From Phycisphaera sp. (lineage in GTDB: Bacteria; Planctomycetota; Phycisphaerae; Phycisphaerales; Phycisphaeraceae): 64,000 bases of DNA. The notes beneath the pieces are model-generated. The model was not told where the DNA came from. It worked only from the letters and a program-made list of their open reading frames with translations, and did not search any database. Made by a program: the position numbers and the translations under genes. The stretch is from NCBI GenBank assembly GCA_028285385.1, contig JANQPR010000003.1, positions 1 to 64,000 of the forward strand, in the 5' to 3' direction. Of this stretch, positions 54,184 to 61,809 are shown piece after piece. Position 1 is the stretch's first letter. Each line of letters begins with the position of its first letter.

Positions 54184-54291
54184 ACCGGCAGCAACCCGTC
54201 TGCCGTTTCGCGCTTCTGCCACGCGGCGTTGAGATACAGTGCGTAGCGATGGTGTGACCTTGTGACGTGTTGCGCCGATGGAGGTGCCGCC

Positions 54292-55089
54292 GTGTCCGAC
54301 CGACCGATCAAGGCCCCGAAGCCCGCGCCCGACGCGGTGGTGTTCCACTCGTACCCGAAGCTGCTGTTCGCCTGGCCGCTAATCCTCTTCGGCGTGGTGT
54401 TCTACTTCCTGCCCGAGACGTGGTCGGGCTTCCTGGGGTGGGTCTACCTCTTCATCACGCTGGTGACCGTCACGGCCCTGGCGATCGACCTCGAACGCAA
54501 CTACGCGTTTGTGTGGTCGTTGGTGTTCGGGATCTTCTTCTTCGTCGGCAAGTGGCTGCACGCGTCCTTCGACATCCCGTTCTTCGAGCGCGTCTTCGGG
54601 TTTTTCTACGGCCTGGGCACGAAGTACGACCCCGGTTACGGCATGGCGTTGTCGCTGCTGCTGCTGTTTCCATACGTCGTGATGCTGGTGTGGGTGCGGA
54701 TCAACAGCCGGTGGCGGATCACGCACAACGAGTTCGAGCACTACGCCTGGGGCCGGGCCGACGACTCGCTCGCGCGGGGCGCCAAGCGGGTTCGGTCGAC
54801 GTACCCGGACCTGCTGGAGTTCCTGCTCTGCGGCGCCGGGACGCTGATCGTGTACTCGGCGACGGGGCGGACGGAGCTGCGTCGGATCCCCAACGTCCCG
54901 CTGCTGTTCCGGGTCCGTAAGCGGATCAACGAGCTGCTCGAAAGCCAACAGGTCACGCTACGAGACCACGACCGCCAAGTCCTCGCCGAGGCCGAGGCGG
55001 AGACCGAGGAACAAGAGGAGGACGCCGGGCCTGACGGGGACGAGTCTCTCGGCGAATCCGACGGGATCGGCGGGAAGGACCCGCTGTGA
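54292..55089 (+). CDS. Membrane protein of unknown function
   Basis: A 265-residue protein from the GTG at 54292, chosen because GGAGG lies seven bases before it. Four hydrophobic helices (LLFAWPLILFGVVFYFLP, GWVYLFITLVTVTALAI, FVWSLVFGIFFFVGKWL, ALSLLLLFPYVVMLVWVRI) are followed by a cytoplasmic domain (SRWRITHNEFEHYAWGRADDSLARGAKRVRSTYPDLLEFLLCGAGTLIVYSATGRTELRRIPNVPLL). This domain resembles a PH-like/bPH domain, because TLIVYSATGRTELRRIPNV is the usual strand pair. The C-terminus is a highly acidic tail. The family is not firmly identified. Confidence 0.75.
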   Translation: MSDRPIKAPKPAPDAVVFHSYPKLLFAWPLILFGVVFYFLPETWSGFLGWVYLFITLVTVTALAIDLERNYAFVWSLVFGIFFFVGKWLHASFDIPFFERVFGFFYGLGTKYDPGYGMALSLLLLFPYVVMLVWVRINSRWRITHNEFEHYAWGRADDSLARGAKRVRSTYPDLLEFLLCGAGTLIVYSATGRTELRRIPNVPLLFRVRKRINELLESQQVTLRDHDRQVLAEAEAETEEQEEDAGPDGDESLGESDGIGGKDPL

Positions 55090-55519: not shown

Positions 55520-56254
55520 ATGGTTCTGACCGTGCGTTTCGAGAAGGGGGACCGCGTTAAGCACCCCAAGCGCCCCGAGTGGGGGTCCGGCATCGTCCGT
55601 GACATCGCGCCCATTACCCACGAGGGCGAGGCCGCCCAACGCCTCACTATCGACTTCGCCACCAAGGGCCGGGTGGTGATCAACGCCGCCATCGCCCCGC
55701 TGGAGAAGGTCGGCAAGGCCTACACCCCGCCCAAGCCCAACGACGGGCACCGTGGCTCCGCCGCGCAGCTCTGGGCCGGGCACCCCGAGGGCAGCAAGGC
55801 CGTCCACAACGGCGAGCGCAACGGCGCGCCCCCGCGCGACGGCGATCCGGGCGCACCCTCGTCGAGTGGCGACTCCGGCTGGCTCGACCAGCTCGAGACC
55901 GCCGGCGGCAAGAAGCACGAGCTCTGGGAGCTGCCCGACGACCTCACGGACCCGTTCGCCACGCCCGAGCAACGCCTCAAGGCCACACTCGACAGCTACC
56001 GGTACTCCACCGAGCCGCGGGCGTTGATCGAGTGGGCCATCGTCCAGACCGGGCTCGACGACCCGCTGACCAAGTACACCCGGCCCGAGCTAGAACAGGC
56101 CTTCCCCCGCTTCGCCCGGGACCGCGACGCCCACCTCCGCAGCCAGATCCGCGAGTTCAAACGCAAGAACGACCTCGCCACGATCAAGGCCTGCCAGAAG
56201 GGCGGCCTGATGCCCGCGGCGCAGTCGGCGCTCGACCGCGCCCTGCGCGGCTGA
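55520..56254 (+). CDS. DUF3553-domain protein
   Basis: A 244-residue protein from the ATG at 55520, with GGAGG eleven bases upstream. The N-terminal 65 residues (VRFEKGDRVKHPKRPEWGSGIVRDI, LTIDFATKGRVVINAAIAPLEKV) match the short DUF3553 beta domain, which recalls the Tudor-like fold of CarD-type RNA-polymerase interaction modules. A disordered Gly/Asn/Pro linker follows. The C-terminal 100 residues are helical (LELPDDLTDPFATPEQRLKATLDSYRYSTEP, FARDRDAHLRSQIREFKRKNDLATIKACQKGG). Usually the domain occurs alone in about 60 residues, so the long tail is unusual. Function unknown. Confidence 0.78.
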   Translation: MVLTVRFEKGDRVKHPKRPEWGSGIVRDIAPITHEGEAAQRLTIDFATKGRVVINAAIAPLEKVGKAYTPPKPNDGHRGSAAQLWAGHPEGSKAVHNGERNGAPPRDGDPGAPSSSGDSGWLDQLETAGGKKHELWELPDDLTDPFATPEQRLKATLDSYRYSTEPRALIEWAIVQTGLDDPLTKYTRPELEQAFPRFARDRDAHLRSQIREFKRKNDLATIKACQKGGLMPAAQSALDRALRG

Positions 56255-56292
56255 CGATTCGCCGACCAACAACACCTTCCACAACCGCCACG

Positions 56293-56325
56293 AAGCCCAC
56301 GGATGCAACCCGTGGGTTTCTTCTT
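56293..56325 (+). terminator. Rho-independent terminator after the DUF3553 gene
   Basis: CCCACGG (56296-56302) pairs with CCGTGGG (56310-56316), extended by AA/TT and a G-U pair, followed by TTTCTTCTT. Confidence 0.8.
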
Positions 56326-56375
56326 GTAACCTGCGCCCGAGCCTCGCGTCCGCCCCCGATCAGGAGCGCCCGACC

Positions 56376-56756
56376 ATGGACACCCCCAACGACCGCCGGT
56401 ACCTCGACTCGCACGAGTGGCACAAGCTCAACGACGACGGCACCGTGACGATCGGCATCAGCGCGTTCGCCGTCGACGAACTCACCGACATCACGTACCT
56501 CGAGGTCACCAAGGACAGCGGCACAGTCGATGCCGGCGAGGCGTTCGGCGAGATCGAGTCGGTCAAAGCCACCAGTGACCTGTATTGCGGGCTCGCCGGC
56601 GAGGTGGTCGAAGTGAACCAGGCCGTGATCGACGACCCCGAGACGATCAACCGCGACTGCTACGGGGCCGGCTGGGTGCTGCGGGTCAGGCCCAACGACC
56701 CGGCGGACCTGGATGAACTGCACACGGCCGAGGCGTACGCCGCCGCAAACACGTGA
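56376..56756 (+). CDS. gcvH: Glycine cleavage system H protein
   Basis: A 126-residue lipoyl carrier that shuttles the aminomethyl group between the P, T and L proteins. RYLDSHEWHKLNDDGTVTIGISAFAVDELTDITYLEV opens it. GEIESVKATSDLYCGLAGEVVEVN has the lipoylated Lys64. DCYGAGWVLRVRPND and the C-terminal LHTAEAYAA complete it. Length is standard. CAGGAG precedes the ATG. gcvT and gcvP are not adjacent, unlike the usual gcvTHP order. It may also serve in lipoate transfer. Confidence 0.96.
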   Translation: MDTPNDRRYLDSHEWHKLNDDGTVTIGISAFAVDELTDITYLEVTKDSGTVDAGEAFGEIESVKATSDLYCGLAGEVVEVNQAVIDDPETINRDCYGAGWVLRVRPNDPADLDELHTAEAYAAANT

Positions 56757-56788
56757 GGGACGGGTTCGCCCCGAGGCATAATCCCCCG

Positions 56789-56794
56789 TAAAAT
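56789..56794 (+). promoter_or_regulatory. TAAAAT, six bases before a TTG start (leaderless -10 candidate)
   Basis: TAAAAT is followed by six bases (CCCGGT) and a TTG in the frame of the amidohydrolase-like gene. The alternative ATG at 56828 has no ribosome-binding site. Confidence 0.45.
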
Positions 56795-56800
56795 CCCGGT

Positions 56801-57748
56801 TTGGGGCATTCGCCGCCGAGACCCCGCATGATCGTCGATCTGCACACTCGCATCTGGGACGCCATCGAGGACCTCGGCCCCGCCGTCGCCGAACAGGCCC
56901 GCCGCCGCGGTGCCGAGCCGTGGGAGGCGGTGTCCGCTTCCTTCGAGGCTCACGAAGCCGCGACGGCGCCGGTGTCCTGCGCCGTGGTGCACGGCCTGCG
57001 CAGCGACCTACTCGGCGCGACCATCGCCCACGACCAGGTCGCCGCCGCCGTGAAGCGAAGCCCCGACACCCTGCTCGGTTTCGCGGGGATCGACCCGACC
57101 GCGGGCAAGCCGGTGAAAGAACTCGAGGCCGCCGTCGACCACGGCCTGGTCGGCGTCTCCGTCAGCCCGACCGCCGCGGGGTTCCACCCCTGTTCCACCG
57201 GCGCAATGGAGTTGTTCGAAGCCTGCGCCGCCCGCCAACTGCCCGTGTACATCGAGGCCGGCTCGCACCTGGCCCGCGCCGCGAAGATGGAGTTCGGCCA
57301 GCCGTTCCTACTCGACGAGGTCGTCCGTTCTTTCCCCGAGCTGCGCCTGGTCGTCGGCGGGTTCGGCGAGCCCTGGCCCAACCAGACCGCGGCGCTGCTG
57401 GCCAAGCACCCCTCCGTCTTCGCCGACGTGTCCGGGCTCGTGCTCCGGCCGTGGCCGCTCTACAACGCACTCGTCTCGGCGTACCAGGCCGGCGTGATGA
57501 ACCAGGTGCTCTTCGCGTCCGGCTTCCCAGCGTGCGAGCCCGAGAAGGCGATCGTCACGCTCTACAGCGTCAACACCCTCACCCAGGGCACCCCCCTGCC
57601 GAGCATCCCCCGCGAACAACTCCGCGGCATCGTCGAACGCAACTCGCTCGAACAGCTCGGGCTGCCCAACCCCGCCAAGGACGGCCAACTCGACGACAAG
57701 TCGTCCTCGGCGTTCGAACAAATCGTCGTCGAGAGCACGGCGAGTTGA
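56801..57748 (+). CDS. Amidohydrolase-2-fold protein lacking the metal ligands
   Basis: 315 residues from the TTG at 56801, or 306 from the ATG at 56828. The layout is that of amidohydrolase-related decarboxylases: IVDLHTRIW at the first strand, GFAGIDPTAGKPVKELE, GLVGVSVSPTAAGFHP, LPVYIEAGSH, LRLVVGGFGEPWPNQTAALL, VFADVSGL and VLFASGFPACEPEKAI. Yet the usual HxH is H-x-R, the lPv-x-x-H-x-G His is Glu, the A-H-x-G His is Gly/Phe, and the final S-D-x-P Asp is Gly. The family catalytic metal therefore cannot bind normally. It is probably a pseudoenzyme or a protein with a new role. Its stop overlaps the next start by one base. Confidence 0.82.
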   Translation: MGHSPPRPRMIVDLHTRIWDAIEDLGPAVAEQARRRGAEPWEAVSASFEAHEAATAPVSCAVVHGLRSDLLGATIAHDQVAAAVKRSPDTLLGFAGIDPTAGKPVKELEAAVDHGLVGVSVSPTAAGFHPCSTGAMELFEACAARQLPVYIEAGSHLARAAKMEFGQPFLLDEVVRSFPELRLVVGGFGEPWPNQTAALLAKHPSVFADVSGLVLRPWPLYNALVSAYQAGVMNQVLFASGFPACEPEKAIVTLYSVNTLTQGTPLPSIPREQLRGIVERNSLEQLGLPNPAKDGQLDDKSSSAFEQIVVESTAS

Positions 57749-58440
57749 TGCAAACCAACTGCGGTCAACCGACCAATATCAAACAAATGCCGTTCGCGGC
57801 GCGTCCGGCGTTGTTGCTGGTGTGTCTCTGCGGTGTGCTCGCTTCGGCGTCCTGCACCGTCGGCAACCCGACCGGGCTGACCATCCGCGGGCAGGCCGAC
57901 CCCGACACCGGCCCCGTGAAACTCACCGGCGACTTCGACACCGCGTACTACTCCGACGCCGACCCCAACTCCGTCACCTTCGTCCTGCTCGACGGCGACG
58001 AAGTCAACCCGACCCAGGCCGCGGTCGTCCGGCTGTTCTGGCGGCCCCGCGCCGGGCGCACGCCGTTGGAAGAGACGGCCACCAACTGCACGATCTCGTA
58101 CCTCGTCTTCGCGCCCGACCCCGACGCCGACCGTCGCAACCCCGGCGAGGTCGGCGTGTACGCCGGCGCCGGCTTCCTGATGCCCGACCGCAAGCCCGGG
58201 CCCGCCGAACTCACCGCCGACATGTGGGACGCTTCGCTCCGCCTCGACACCCGCTCCGACCGGTTCACCGACCTGCTCGGCAGCGCCACGCTCACCGGCA
58301 GCTTCAAGGCGCGGCGCGACCCCGCCAAGGTCGGCACGCTGCTGCAACAGCTCAACCGCGCCGTCGCCGAGCGCCTCGGCTTCCCCCGGCTGGTCGACGC
58401 CGGCAACGCGACCCCGGCGGCGTCACGCAACCCGGCGTGA
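57748..58440 (+). CDS. Predicted exported protein of unknown function
   Basis: 230 residues from the ATG at 57748; the ATG at 57787 would give a cleaner signal peptide (MPFAARPALLLVCLCGVLASASC). The Cys after LASAS makes a lipoprotein possible, although the -3 residue is not the usual Leu. The body of about 190 residues (VKLTGDFDTAYYSDADPNSVTFVLLDGDEVNPTQAAVVRLFWRPRAG, ISYLVFAPDPDADRRNPGEVGVYAGAGFLMP) is a beta-rich domain without a recognised family. One-base overlap with the amidohydrolase-like gene suggests translational coupling and a possible joint role. Confidence 0.72.
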   Translation: MQTNCGQPTNIKQMPFAARPALLLVCLCGVLASASCTVGNPTGLTIRGQADPDTGPVKLTGDFDTAYYSDADPNSVTFVLLDGDEVNPTQAAVVRLFWRPRAGRTPLEETATNCTISYLVFAPDPDADRRNPGEVGVYAGAGFLMPDRKPGPAELTADMWDASLRLDTRSDRFTDLLGSATLTGSFKARRDPAKVGTLLQQLNRAVAERLGFPRLVDAGNATPAASRNPA

Positions 58441-58550
58441 CGATGTAGACTCGGCCGCGCCTGCTCGTGCCGGCCTGTTTGTTTTGGCCTGCCTGCAACC
58501 TCGCGTCTCACGTCCCGCTCGCTCCGATGCCCAACCCGAGGACCCGTCCG

Positions 58551-60605
58551 ATGATGCCGACCGTCACGCGGTGGTGCCGTTGCTGGATGATCATGCTGCT
58601 GGTGATGTGGGTGCCCACGGCAGCGGCGCAGACAGAAGCGACGGAAGGGGCCGAGACGCCCGAACTGACGCGCTGGGAACAGGCCCAGGCCGACGTCGAG
58701 GTCGCGTTCGAGAAGGTCAACGACCGGCTGATCCCGTGGCTCTTTGTTGACGTCAGCTTCGGGCTGTTCGACCCCACCCTGGAGAGTGTCGAGGCGGACC
58801 TGTCCGAAGCGCAGGCCCGGCTGGCCGAGTTGGAGGCCGTGCCGACTGAGCAACAGGACCCACGGGCGCTCCGCCTCGCGCGGAAGACGGTGAACAACCT
58901 GACCGATCAGCGGAACACGCTGCAGGTCAAGGCCGACGCGGCCGCGCTCCTCGCCGACGACGACGCGATCGCGGCCAAACAAGCCGAAGCCGAGGCCGCG
59001 GGCGAAGTGGCACTCGAACAGTTCGAGGCGGAGTACGACGAACTCAAATCGGCCGCGGGCGCGACCGTGTACTCCCTGCCGTTGATCGTCGTCTTCCTCC
59101 TCCTCGGCGGTGTCTTCTTCACGCTCCGGTTCGGCTTCGTCAACCTCCGCTTGTTCGGTCACAGCGTCGCCGTCATCCGCGGCCGGTACGACAACCCCAA
59201 CGACCACGGCGAGGTCTCGCACTTCCAGGCGCTCACCGCGGCGTTGTCCGCGACGGTGGGGCTCGGCAACATCGCCGGCGTCGCCATCGCCATCAGCCAG
59301 GGCGGCGCGGGGGCCGTGTTCTGGATGTGGTTTGTGGCGTTCTTCGGCATGTCGTCGAAGTTCTCGTCCTGCACGCTCGCTCAGATGTACCGCCGCATCA
59401 GCGATGAAAAGCACCACCACAAGAAGCGCGAGCACGTGCTCGGCGGCCCAATGCTCTACCTGGCCGAGGGCATGAAGGACGTGTTCGGCAAGGCGTTCGG
59501 TACGCCGCTGGGCAAGGTGTTGGCGATCCTGTTTGCCGTGTTCGCCATCGGCGGGTCGCTCGGCGGCGGCAACCTGTTCCAGGGCAACCAGACGTTCGCG
59601 ATCGTCGGCGACGTCGTGTTCAACCAGGCCATCGAGGGCGAGGACGCGCTGATCCTCCGCGTCGAAGAGGGCGACGCGACGGCGGCCAAGGAGCTCCGCG
59701 AACTCCGCACCGAAGCCAAGGAACGCAAGGAAGATCTCAAGGATACCTACGACTGGGTCGGCGGGCTGGTGATGGCGACACTCGTGGGCGTCGTGATCGT
59801 CGGCGGCATCCGGCGCATCGGCGAGGTCACCAGCAAGCTCGTGCCGGCGATGTGCCTGTTCTACGTCGGCGTCTGCGGGGTCATCGTGATCGCCAACGCC
59901 GGCGAGGTGCCGACGCTGCTGCGCGACATCGTCGCCGGGGCGTTCTCGGGCGAGGCGATGGCGTGGGGCGGGCTGATGGGGGTGCTCGTCATCGGTGTCA
60001 AACGCGGCGCGTTCTCGAACGAGGCGGGGCTTGGCTCGGCGGCGATCGCGCACTCGGCGGCTAAGACCGACGAGCCAGTCCGCGAGGGCGTTGTCGCCAT
60101 GATCGGCCCGTTCATCGACACCATCGTGGTCTGCACGATGACCGCGCTGGCGATCCTCATCACCGGCGCCCACCTCGAAGGCTCGGCCGGCGGGTTCACC
60201 AACGAGGGCGTCGGCATCACCGCCTCCGCGTTCAGCTCACTCGCGCCGTGGCTGACCGTGACGCTCATGGCCGCCGTCTTCATCTTCGCCTACTCCACCA
60301 TGATCTCGTGGAGCTACTACGGCGAACGCGCCAGCGAGTACCTGTTCGGCAACTGGGGCATCTGGCCGTTCCGCGTGGTGTTCCTGCTGTTCGTGTTCAT
60401 GTCGCCGCTGCTGTCGCTGGACAACGTGATCACGTTCACCGACCTGCTGATCCTCTCGATGGCGTACCCCAACATCCTGGGCATGCTGTTCCTGTCCGGC
60501 AAGGTCGCCGCCGCGACAAAGGATTACGTGCGCCGGCTGAAGTCCGGGGAGATCAAGACCTACGCCGAGGAACGCGCCGCGGTCGAGGGGCAGCCGTCGA
60601 TCTGA
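58551..60605 (+). CDS. AGCS-family sodium:amino-acid symporter with periplasmic coiled-coil insert
   Basis: 684 residues from the ATG at 58551, chosen because CCGAGGA lies eight bases before it. A signal-like helix (WMIMLLVMWVPTAAAQ) is followed by a helical insert of about 110 residues (LESVEADLSEAQARLAELEAV, EAEAEAAGEVALEQFEAEYDEL). The symporter begins at YSLPLIVVFLLLGGVFFTLRFGF, with ALSATVGLGNIAGVAIAISQGG, GAFSNEAGLGSAAIAHSAAKT and GPFIDTIVVCTMTALAI as AGCS signatures. A second charged loop of about 45 residues lies near residues 355-400. It imports alanine, glycine or related amino acids with Na+. The insert is unusual. Confidence 0.88.
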   Translation: MMPTVTRWCRCWMIMLLVMWVPTAAAQTEATEGAETPELTRWEQAQADVEVAFEKVNDRLIPWLFVDVSFGLFDPTLESVEADLSEAQARLAELEAVPTEQQDPRALRLARKTVNNLTDQRNTLQVKADAAALLADDDAIAAKQAEAEAAGEVALEQFEAEYDELKSAAGATVYSLPLIVVFLLLGGVFFTLRFGFVNLRLFGHSVAVIRGRYDNPNDHGEVSHFQALTAALSATVGLGNIAGVAIAISQGGAGAVFWMWFVAFFGMSSKFSSCTLAQMYRRISDEKHHHKKREHVLGGPMLYLAEGMKDVFGKAFGTPLGKVLAILFAVFAIGGSLGGGNLFQGNQTFAIVGDVVFNQAIEGEDALILRVEEGDATAAKELRELRTEAKERKEDLKDTYDWVGGLVMATLVGVVIVGGIRRIGEVTSKLVPAMCLFYVGVCGVIVIANAGEVPTLLRDIVAGAFSGEAMAWGGLMGVLVIGVKRGAFSNEAGLGSAAIAHSAAKTDEPVREGVVAMIGPFIDTIVVCTMTALAILITGAHLEGSAGGFTNEGVGITASAFSSLAPWLTVTLMAAVFIFAYSTMISWSYYGERASEYLFGNWGIWPFRVVFLLFVFMSPLLSLDNVITFTDLLILSMAYPNILGMLFLSGKVAAATKDYVRRLKSGEIKTYAEERAAVEGQPSI

Positions 60606-60669: not shown

Positions 60670-61809
60670 ATGACGCCACCTCCCGACGCGACGTCCGAAA
60701 ACCCGAGCCGCATGGAGAACAACGCGGACGACGCCGTCGCGCTGCCGCCGCTGGTCGCACGCTCCGCCGTCGGCGGGGTCTTGATGGGCCTGGCGAACCT
60801 CGTGCCCGGGATCTCGGGCGGGACGATGCTGCTCGCCGCCGGCGTCTACCCGCGCTTCATCGCCGCGATCGGCGAGGTGACGACGTTCCGGTTCCGCAAG
60901 CCGTCGGTCGTCGTGCTCGGCACGGTGGTGGTAGCGGCGTTGCTATCGATCGTGCTGCTCGCGGGCGCCGTCAAAGAACTGGTGATCGATTACCGGTGGG
61001 TGATGTACAGCCTGTTCATCGGGCTGACGCTGGGCGGCGTGCCGGTCGTCTGGCGGCTGATCCGAAACGGCAGCGACGGCGAACACCGAAGGCGCGCAGT
61101 AACTGGCGGCGTGTGGGTGGCCGCCTCCTGCGGCTTCGCGGGCATGGCGGTGCTTGCGTCCGCGCAGTCTCTGGGCGCCGCCGGTGAAGGCAGCAACGAC
61201 GGCTTCGCGTTCATGCTGCTCGCGGGGATCGCGGGCGCGGCGGCGATGATCCTGCCGGGCGTCAGCGGCGGGTACCTGCTGCTGGTGCTCGGCGTGTACG
61301 TGCCGATCCTCGCCGGCATCGACACGTTCAAGGACGCGCTGTCCACGCGCGACACCGACGCGCTACTCGACGTGGGCTTGGCGGTGATCCTGCCGGTGGG
61401 CCTGGGCGTGTTGATCGGTGTCGTGGGTGTGAGCAACCTGTTGCGTTGGCTGCTCCGGCGCTACGAGCTTGCGACGCTGGGTGTATTGCTCGGGTTGTTG
61501 CTCGGCGCGGTTGTAGGGTTGTGGCCCTTCCAGAAGGGCATCACGCCGCAAGAAGGGCAACTCATCAAAGGCCAGCCCGTCACGTTCGCGACACCCGCCT
61601 CTGTCGATGGTGAACCCGCATCGACCCAACCCGTATGGGTGTTCGTTGATAGCCTTGAATCCGTCGAGCCCGAGGACCTCCCCACCGAGTTCTTCACGCC
61701 GACCGCGTTGCAGGCCGCCGGCAGCGTCGGCTTGATCCTGCTGGGGTTCGCCGTCACGATGGGCGTGGACCGACTCGGCCGGGCGAAGCCGGGCAAGACA
61801 ACGACGTAA
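60670..61809 (+). CDS. DUF368 membrane protein (polyprenyl-phosphate transporter type)
   Basis: A 379-residue multi-pass protein. ARSAVGGVLMGLANLVPGISGGTMLLAAGVYPRFI is the DUF368 signature, repeated as MLLAGIAGAAAMILPGVSGGYLLLVLGVY. The two half-repeats are arranged as inverted copies. Members of DUF368 were recently shown to flip undecaprenyl phosphate back across the membrane (PopT), recycling the carrier for cell-wall and surface polymers. A TACAAC lies six bases before the ATG, close to the TANNNT boxes seen elsewhere. galE follows 18 bp downstream, which fits a role in polymer export. Confidence 0.9.
   Translation: MTPPPDATSENPSRMENNADDAVALPPLVARSAVGGVLMGLANLVPGISGGTMLLAAGVYPRFIAAIGEVTTFRFRKPSVVVLGTVVVAALLSIVLLAGAVKELVIDYRWVMYSLFIGLTLGGVPVVWRLIRNGSDGEHRRRAVTGGVWVAASCGFAGMAVLASAQSLGAAGEGSNDGFAFMLLAGIAGAAAMILPGVSGGYLLLVLGVYVPILAGIDTFKDALSTRDTDALLDVGLAVILPVGLGVLIGVVGVSNLLRWLLRRYELATLGVLLGLLLGAVVGLWPFQKGITPQEGQLIKGQPVTFATPASVDGEPASTQPVWVFVDSLESVEPEDLPTEFFTPTALQAAGSVGLILLGFAVTMGVDRLGRAKPGKTTT

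Follow-up and report, generated by a model that had tools for sequence, protein, structure and literature searches.

A gene in the window, a stretch of 64,000 nucleotides from a Phycisphaera sp. (contig JANQPR010000003.1), encodes a protein of the amidohydrolase fold in which four of the five metal-ligand positions have been replaced, and purifying selection on the gene has persisted after this loss. The protein is descended from a metal-dependent Amidohydrolase_2 enzyme, and among its relatives in the Phycisphaerae (Planctomycetota) every stage is found, from complete metal sites to sites with no ligand left. In many of these relatives, as in the window, the gene is followed directly by one for a predicted exported lipoprotein. 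It is quite probable that the role of the window protein needs no metal at the old site.

The gene, its fold and its old metal site

The barrel gene encodes 306 amino acids. Its frame is intact, as an earlier note on this DNA had said: it reads through at full length, and the product matches PF04909 (Amidohydro_2) over model positions 1–285 of 289, with an E value of 2.1e-26 and 93.8 bits against a gathering cut-off of 26.4. The earlier note had begun the gene at a TTG at 56801; the actual start is the ATG at 56828, 27 bases further on, where the ortholog alignments begin. Residues are counted here from the methionine at that ATG. By eye there is no signal peptide, and the protein is probably cytosolic.

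The AlphaFold2 model, for which an alignment of 81 rows was used, is confident (pLDDT 93.2) and shows a distorted TIM-barrel. Foldseek matches it to 374 PDB chains (E ≤ 0.001), with 3irs first, and VIA-align superimposes it on 3irs with a Z of 26.9 and an rmsd of 2.9 over 260 aligned residues. Decarboxylases and PDC hydrolases give values near Z 22, namely 2dvt (Z 22.5), 4i6k (Z 21.8) and human ACMSD, 7pwy (Z 21.3).

We take the ligand positions of PF04909 to be the HxH of strand 1, the His of strands 5 and 6 and the Asp of strand 8, and this assignment agrees with the pattern HHHHD in 10 of 10 outgroup paralogs. The window protein has H6, R8, E143, G178 and G232 at these positions (Table 1); it belongs to PF04909 by profile and by fold, and it departs from the family in its ligands. 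The earlier note had all the main metal ligands replaced, and this stands for four of them: HxH has become HxR (H6-T7-R8), the barrel His is Glu (E143), the His of AHxG is missing (G178, in the xHxG strand) and the late Asp is Gly (G232). It does not stand for H6, since the first His of HxH is present. In principle, H6, D4, D89, E143 and H120 could still hold something.

Table 1. Positions of the barrel gene, selected codons and adjoining genes in the window
Feature	Position	Strand	Basis or remarks
gcvH, glycine cleavage H protein, upstream neighbour	56376..56756	+	PF01597, 2.3e-37
Amidohydrolase_2-fold protein, metal site largely lost	56828..57748	+	Pfam PF04909, ortholog starts, AlphaFold2 model, 3irs match
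H6 codon, first His of HxH, kept	56843..56845	+	alignment
R8 codon, in place of second HxH His	56849..56851	+	alignment
H120 codon, FHP motif after strand 4, family-specific	57185..57187	+	23/28 zero-ligand rows vs 1/10 outgroup
E143 codon, in place of strand 5 barrel His	57254..57256	+	alignment
E164 to R167 codons, LDEVVR helix, both ends family-specific	57317..57328	+	27/28 and 28/28 zero-ligand rows vs 1/10 each outgroup
G178 codon, in place of strand 6 His	57359..57361	+	alignment
W209 codon, family-specific	57452..57454	+	28/28 zero-ligand rows vs 3/10 outgroup
G232 codon, in place of strand 8 late Asp	57521..57523	+	alignment
R262 to E270 codons, C-terminal segment, R262 and E270 family-specific	57611..57637	+	27/28 and 28/28 zero-ligand rows vs 0/10 and 1/10 outgroup
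TGATG stop/start overlap, 1 base	57746..57750	+	stop 57746-57748, partner ATG 57748-57750
Partner, predicted exported lipoprotein, 230 aa, Cys36 after hydrophobic stretch	57748..58440	+	beta-rich domain, C-terminal helix

Repeated ligand loss and continued selection

The barrel protein has matches at E ≤ 0.01 in 50 of 61 genomes, its own included, and some of these matches are paralogs; in a tree of 57 rows, 48 orthologs stand apart from nine paralogs, whose sites are intact. From a scan of named genomes, the best 80 of 161 relatives were kept, of which 76 are labelled Planctomycetota/Phycisphaerae or subgroups, two 'uncultured bacterium', one Gammaproteobacteria and one Vicinamibacteraceae. 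The last two (L141, Gammaproteobacteria J025, and L161, Vicinamibacteraceae PLA1) carry a version of the gene that is typically Phycisphaerae, and these records may be mislabelled or come from mixed bins. The full set, which includes one gene from each of 60 further genomes of the class, has 181 rows, 171 of them ingroup and 154 of these distinct. A profile of the barrel protein has matches in 162 of 198 class genomes (E ≤ 1e-30, paralogs included).

Among the 154 distinct ingroup rows, none of the five ligands is kept in 28, one in 23, two in 29, three in 34, four in 34 and all five in six. The HHHHD of these six rows and of all ten outgroup rows indicates an ancestry among enzymes with intact sites. 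The patterns at the site differ by lineage: HRE(G/S/A)(G/N) is found around the window, and others are HQE(H/R)D, YCHHG/YHHHG, HHHQD, EQRGG, (D/E)RGGG, HHYHD and HSSHD. Rows with four ligands, such as those reading HHHQD, may still bind metal, and for this reason metal independence is argued here from the ligand-poor rows and not for the whole family.

The losses were counted on trees built without the five ligand columns, the deep forks of which are weak. On the full tree, irreversible loss requires nine events for H6, 20 each for H8, H143 and H178, and 24 for D232. With branches of SH-aLRT below 95 collapsed, and with the children of a polytomy that are without the ligand counted once, the numbers are 6 for H6, 11 for H8, 7 for H143, 6 for H178 and 12 for D232; unordered parsimony gives minima of 9, 17, 16, 14 and 18 changes in the same order. 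If the losses are irreversible, each ligand would have been lost at least 6–12 times in the Phycisphaerae family.

In the window's own clade of 19 rows (fork support 90), no row has more than one ligand, and that one is H6, which is present in 16 rows; the three others, which read NRESG, have Asn. The earlier note had proposed a search of relatives for the same substitutions, and the same or analogous ones are found. It had also reasoned that homologues keeping the ligands would speak against its reading. Such homologues are absent from the clade of 19, and they do occur farther away, since the distant orthologs L151, xL055, L188, L236 and L237 keep all five, so that the objection carries half its weight.

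The ligand columns are about average in variability (41st to 76th percentile). D4, D89, P90, P114, S231 and P234, at or below the 4th percentile, form a nearly invariant scaffold, and D4, D89 and P114 are each kept in 28 of the 28 zero-ligand rows; D4 and D89 are conserved in the metal-keeping outgroup as well (9/10 and 8/10). By the method of Nei and Gojobori, dN/dS lies between 0.044 and 0.30 in 17 of 18 close pairs, and dS is saturated in the remaining pair; seven of the dS values exceed 1 and are rough. HRESN pairs give 0.06–0.07, EQRGG pairs 0.05–0.12, three DRGGG pairs and one ERGGG pair 0.04–0.08, another DRGGG pair 0.26 and the window against L134 0.30. Pairs richer in ligands (YCHHG, HHYHD, HQEHD and HQERD) give 0.07–0.15. 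It is from these ratios, together with the retained residues, that purifying selection is seen to persist after the loss of catalytic residues. The earlier description of the change as not random decay is upheld on the same grounds, with dN/dS at 0.04–0.30 and family-specific residues retained without the ligands. Given the HHHHD of the outgroup, the Arg and acid of the window's clade and the low dN/dS, the replacement of the ligands is more than chance.

The combination of R8 with Glu or Asp at 143 is found in 19 of 19 rows of the clade and, outside it, in HRDQD, HREAD and YRDSG rows. An acid stands at 143 in 24 of the 38 distinct rows with R8 and in 23 of the 116 without it, and 36 of the 38 have Asp or Glu at position 6, 143 or 178. 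After correction for the tree, the association between R8 and an acid at 143 is not significant (about 3:0 in independent pairs), and a broader test of Arg against acid gives about 3:1. Since R8 and E143 are at neighbouring ligand positions, the geometry of the fold makes an ion pair possible. We tentatively propose, as a hypothesis somewhat less likely than not, a salt bridge that would span the barrel at the former metal position.

The lipoprotein gene and its setting

The earlier note had pointed to an overlap of one base with the downstream gene, and it is there: the junction reads TGATG, the next ATG beginning inside the stop codon. No sigma-70-like site was found in 56200–58600 and no terminator-like site on the plus strand between the barrel and lipoprotein genes. 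An open frame of 506 amino acids (56920–58440, plus strand) runs across the two genes in a different frame. It is a shadow frame of GC-rich DNA, and what it matched in relatives were those two genes again, in most cases interrupted by stops.

The model of the partner (pLDDT 87.3) has nine strands and a C-terminal helix. No PDB entry matches its fold at E ≤ 0.001, and we have not filed it under any fold, YceI and lipocalin-like barrels included, as its VIA matches reach a Z of 6.3 or less (YceI-like 1wub, Z 5.7; BcnB 5ixg, Z 6.2; best, Z 6.3), a range that the tool calls a common arrangement. The YceI family of Pfam matches none of 53 members at E ≤ 0.1; at that threshold the sole Pfam match among the 53 is DUF5848, at 0.016, with none for the window copy, and NCBIfam has no match at 0.01. 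A Cys is present in at least 90% of the 53 aligned partners, the rows having been cut at the window's Cys column. A crude lipobox pattern fits 30 of 43 partners and does not fit the window copy, which reads SASC. The shared core consists of the Cys after a hydrophobic stretch and W-P-G-TP-D-TATNAT ... Y-G-GF.

Is the neighbour the same in relatives, as had been proposed for a check? In many it is. With a profile made from the window's partner, 48 context loci were searched (that of the window and 47 other regions), and a family member lies directly downstream in 43 of them, the five others being four orthologs and one outgroup paralog. It is directly downstream in 52 of the named loci, these being the best 80 of 161 relatives; of the 28 named loci without it, two have 119 bases or fewer of contig left and three more have 796–1120. 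Of the 60 further genomes of the class, in each of which only the one sampled barrel gene was considered, 19 have the partner next to it, 22 have it at another place in the genome and 19 gave no match. The 52 junctions read ATGA in 16 cases, GTGA in eight, TTGA in seven and TGATG or TAATG in one, with 20 others; those counted as GTGA or TTGA could be the stop codon read that way by chance. In terms of distinct rows, with unknown and cut cases placed among the non-adjacent and kinship ignored, the partner adjoins the barrel gene in 43 of 51 rows that keep no ligand or one, 25 of 63 with two or three and 25 of 40 with four or five. Five of the six rows with all five ligands have an adjacent partner (L151, xL055, L188, L236 and L237, not L290). 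Therefore, the linkage neither requires nor proves a loss of catalysis, and the earlier step from the gene pair to a non-hydrolytic role is not supported in that form.

The partner profile matches 111 of the 198 class genomes (E ≤ 0.001), and comparison by hand gives 98 genomes with both genes, 13 with the partner alone, 64 with the barrel alone and 23 with neither. Across the phylum, the partner is found in ten of 199 genomes, nine of them from the window's order (its own included) and one matching at 7e-4; within that order, 46 of 50 sampled genomes of good quality have it. Strict co-dependence of the two genes is to be rejected, since each occurs apart from or without the other. The partner is present without a barrel ortholog in four genomes of one genus of family f2, in three further f2 genera and in genus g21 of family f1; within g21, genome G021 has only a weak barrel match (1.9e-26), on another contig, and in G051 the partner sits at a contig end. 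Two f2 genomes have the barrel without the partner. Among 20 regions chosen because no barrel gene was seen beside the partner, six (L295, L297, L298, L302, L303 and L305) have it head to head with genes resembling mqnA and mqnC (futalosine route to menaquinone), which we treat as a lead only.

Upstream of the barrel gene, gcvH is context and not necessarily part of the unit; it was rejected as a general functional partner, as it precedes the barrel gene in only 19 of the 48 context loci, all in the window's own family. The other neighbours are lineage-specific: a Na:alanine symporter, PF04018 and GalE; WecA-like and O-antigen-ligase-like genes; a KpsF-like gene; and an M20 peptidase. The names WecA, O-antigen ligase, KpsF, GalE, MqnA, MqnC and M20 peptidase come from reading sequence starts and carry no Pfam call. 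Two genes downstream of the pair, at 60670–61809 on the plus strand, lies a VCA0040-like gene (PF04018, 8.2e-41), described as undecaprenyl phosphate translocase-like; a PF04018-related gene is downstream in six of the 48 context loci, the window included. At 54262–55089, also on the plus strand, a predicted protein of 275 amino acids contains several hydrophobic segments and matches nothing in Pfam. The named set includes seven YCHHG loci, and six of them (L168, L182, L189, L200, L201 and L207) have an M20-peptidase-like gene after the barrel gene, and in four of those six a family of exported proteins precedes it, a neighbourhood that differs from the lipoprotein unit.

Possible roles and known pseudoenzymes

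A barrel that binds or regulates is suggested by the conserved family-specific residues together with the indifference to metal. We consider it rather likely that the window protein belongs to a Phycisphaerae family whose selected function needs no metal and in which the ligands drift. Such a barrel might bind a small molecule or a protein through its conserved non-metal residues and in this way regulate, or act as a scaffold for, an envelope process in which the lipoprotein also takes part. Once metal was no longer needed, the ligands would drift, in the window's clade to the pair of R8 and E143. By inference, the role would be a non-hydrolytic one. Catalysis may be the original function, retained locally, given that the partner stands beside five-ligand genes.

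The frequent operon with the lipoprotein gene suggests an envelope-related task. That barrel and lipoprotein act jointly in the envelope is rather doubtful. Physical contact of the barrel with the mature lipoprotein is unlikely, since one is cytosolic and the other exported and the two should not meet. It is more speculative still, and we think it decidedly improbable, that the Phycisphaerae have a two-component envelope module of a cytosolic barrel that binds without metal, having exchanged its metal site time and again for other residues (perhaps an Arg-Glu ion pair in the window's clade), and an undescribed beta-rich lipoprotein that perhaps binds a polyprenyl lipid. The hints of this converge but are weak: the PF04018 gene two genes on, WecA-like and O-antigen-ligase-like neighbours in another family, the menaquinone-like genes beside some unlinked partners and the low-scoring YceI-like structural matches.

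The amidohydrolase superfamily includes a metal-free isomerase, galactarolactone isomerase. The window protein might likewise be a metal-independent enzyme, its pocket catalysing an isomerisation or lyase step through H120, D89 or E143, and the conservation of D4, D89, P114 and H120 in 28, 28, 28 and 23 of the 28 ligand-free rows would fit, as would a solved relative, 3irs, that seems itself degenerate (M and A at positions 143 and 232). However, the residues of the old site vary by lineage (HRE, HQE, EQR, DRG, YCH, HSS), which is ill-suited to one chemistry, and D4 and D89 are conserved in the metal-keeping outgroup too and need not mark a new one; we think this reading unlikely. It is a good deal less likely that the protein is still a metalloenzyme, with an altered site built from H6 and E143 together with further His or acidic side chains. 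In the window's clade, 16 of 19 rows have H6, and E143 might act as a ligand, but position 6 carries Asn where the row reads NRESG (three rows) and an acid, Asp or Glu, among the DRGGG, ERGGG and EQRGG rows elsewhere, and Arg 8 should face the side of H6, where it would oppose a cation.

Little more probable than a metalloenzyme is a structural subunit of another enzyme, comparable to the dihydroorotase chain, itself inactive, of Pseudomonas aspartate transcarbamoylase. For this there is precedent within the superfamily in the pseudo-dihydroorotase (PMC7053772), but the window genome, which is about 97% complete, has only one match at E ≤ 0.01 with no homologous enzyme subunit seen, and the barrel gene has no constant enzyme-gene neighbour, with gcvH beside it in no more than 19 of 48 loci. 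Some lineages with the partner (f2 genera as well as the f1 genus g21) gave no match for the barrel gene, as might be expected of a gene decaying towards loss. Against decay, there are no internal stops among the matches listed, dN/dS is 0.04–0.30 and the family-specific residues are retained, and we give this explanation hardly any credence. The binding or regulatory barrel that has dispensed with its metal is the reading that we retain.

To our knowledge, most described pseudoenzymes go back to a single ancient loss. In this case, the members of one protein family in one bacterial class form a natural series that begins with complete metal sites and ends with sites that have no ligand left, and because many members have the same neighbour gene, what function outlasts catalysis and what replaces a core metal become directly testable. 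The analysis also brings to attention a lipoprotein family that has no Pfam or NCBIfam name, and it cautions against annotating ligand-poor barrel proteins as hydrolases. Our literature search found no paper on the barrel family or the lipoprotein partner by title or abstract start, and no text match for BB4693.

With the enzymes of PF04909 (dihydroxybenzoate, ACMS and 5-carboxyvanillate decarboxylases and 2-pyrone-4,6-dicarboxylate hydrolase), the window protein shares the full-length profile and the fold; it differs from them in the replacement of four of five metal ligands and in the linked lipoprotein gene. The nearest solved structure, by sequence (2.2e-9) as well as by fold, is BB4693 of Bordetella bronchiseptica (PDB 3irs, 3k4w). 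Reading the alignment by eye, BB4693 appears to resemble the window protein in having non-ligands, M and A, at positions 143 and 232, whereas it keeps a His where the window protein has G178; the HxH region lies outside the alignment. Two metal ligands seem to be missing from this uncharacterised protein, which may represent a further, degenerate member elsewhere.

CRMPs, or dihydropyrimidinase-related proteins, belong to the hydantoinase-type branch of the superfamily and are animal signalling proteins. CRMP1 has the amidohydrolase fold with four of five ligand positions changed, including HxH to HxY and the late Asp to Gly (PMC2999344). In the pseudo-dihydroorotase (pDHO) domain of aspartate transcarbamoylase, the zinc ligands are gone and the fold is kept, much as here (PMC7053772); in Pseudomonas the chain is reported to be required for ATCase activity although it is itself inactive, whereas no such enzyme partner is seen for the window protein. 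Compared with the CRMPs, the window protein is bacterial, belongs to PF04909 and comes from a family with many parallel losses. Pseudoenzymes of the amidohydrolase fold are already known, and what sets this one apart is the many parallel losses in one family together with the lipoprotein neighbour.
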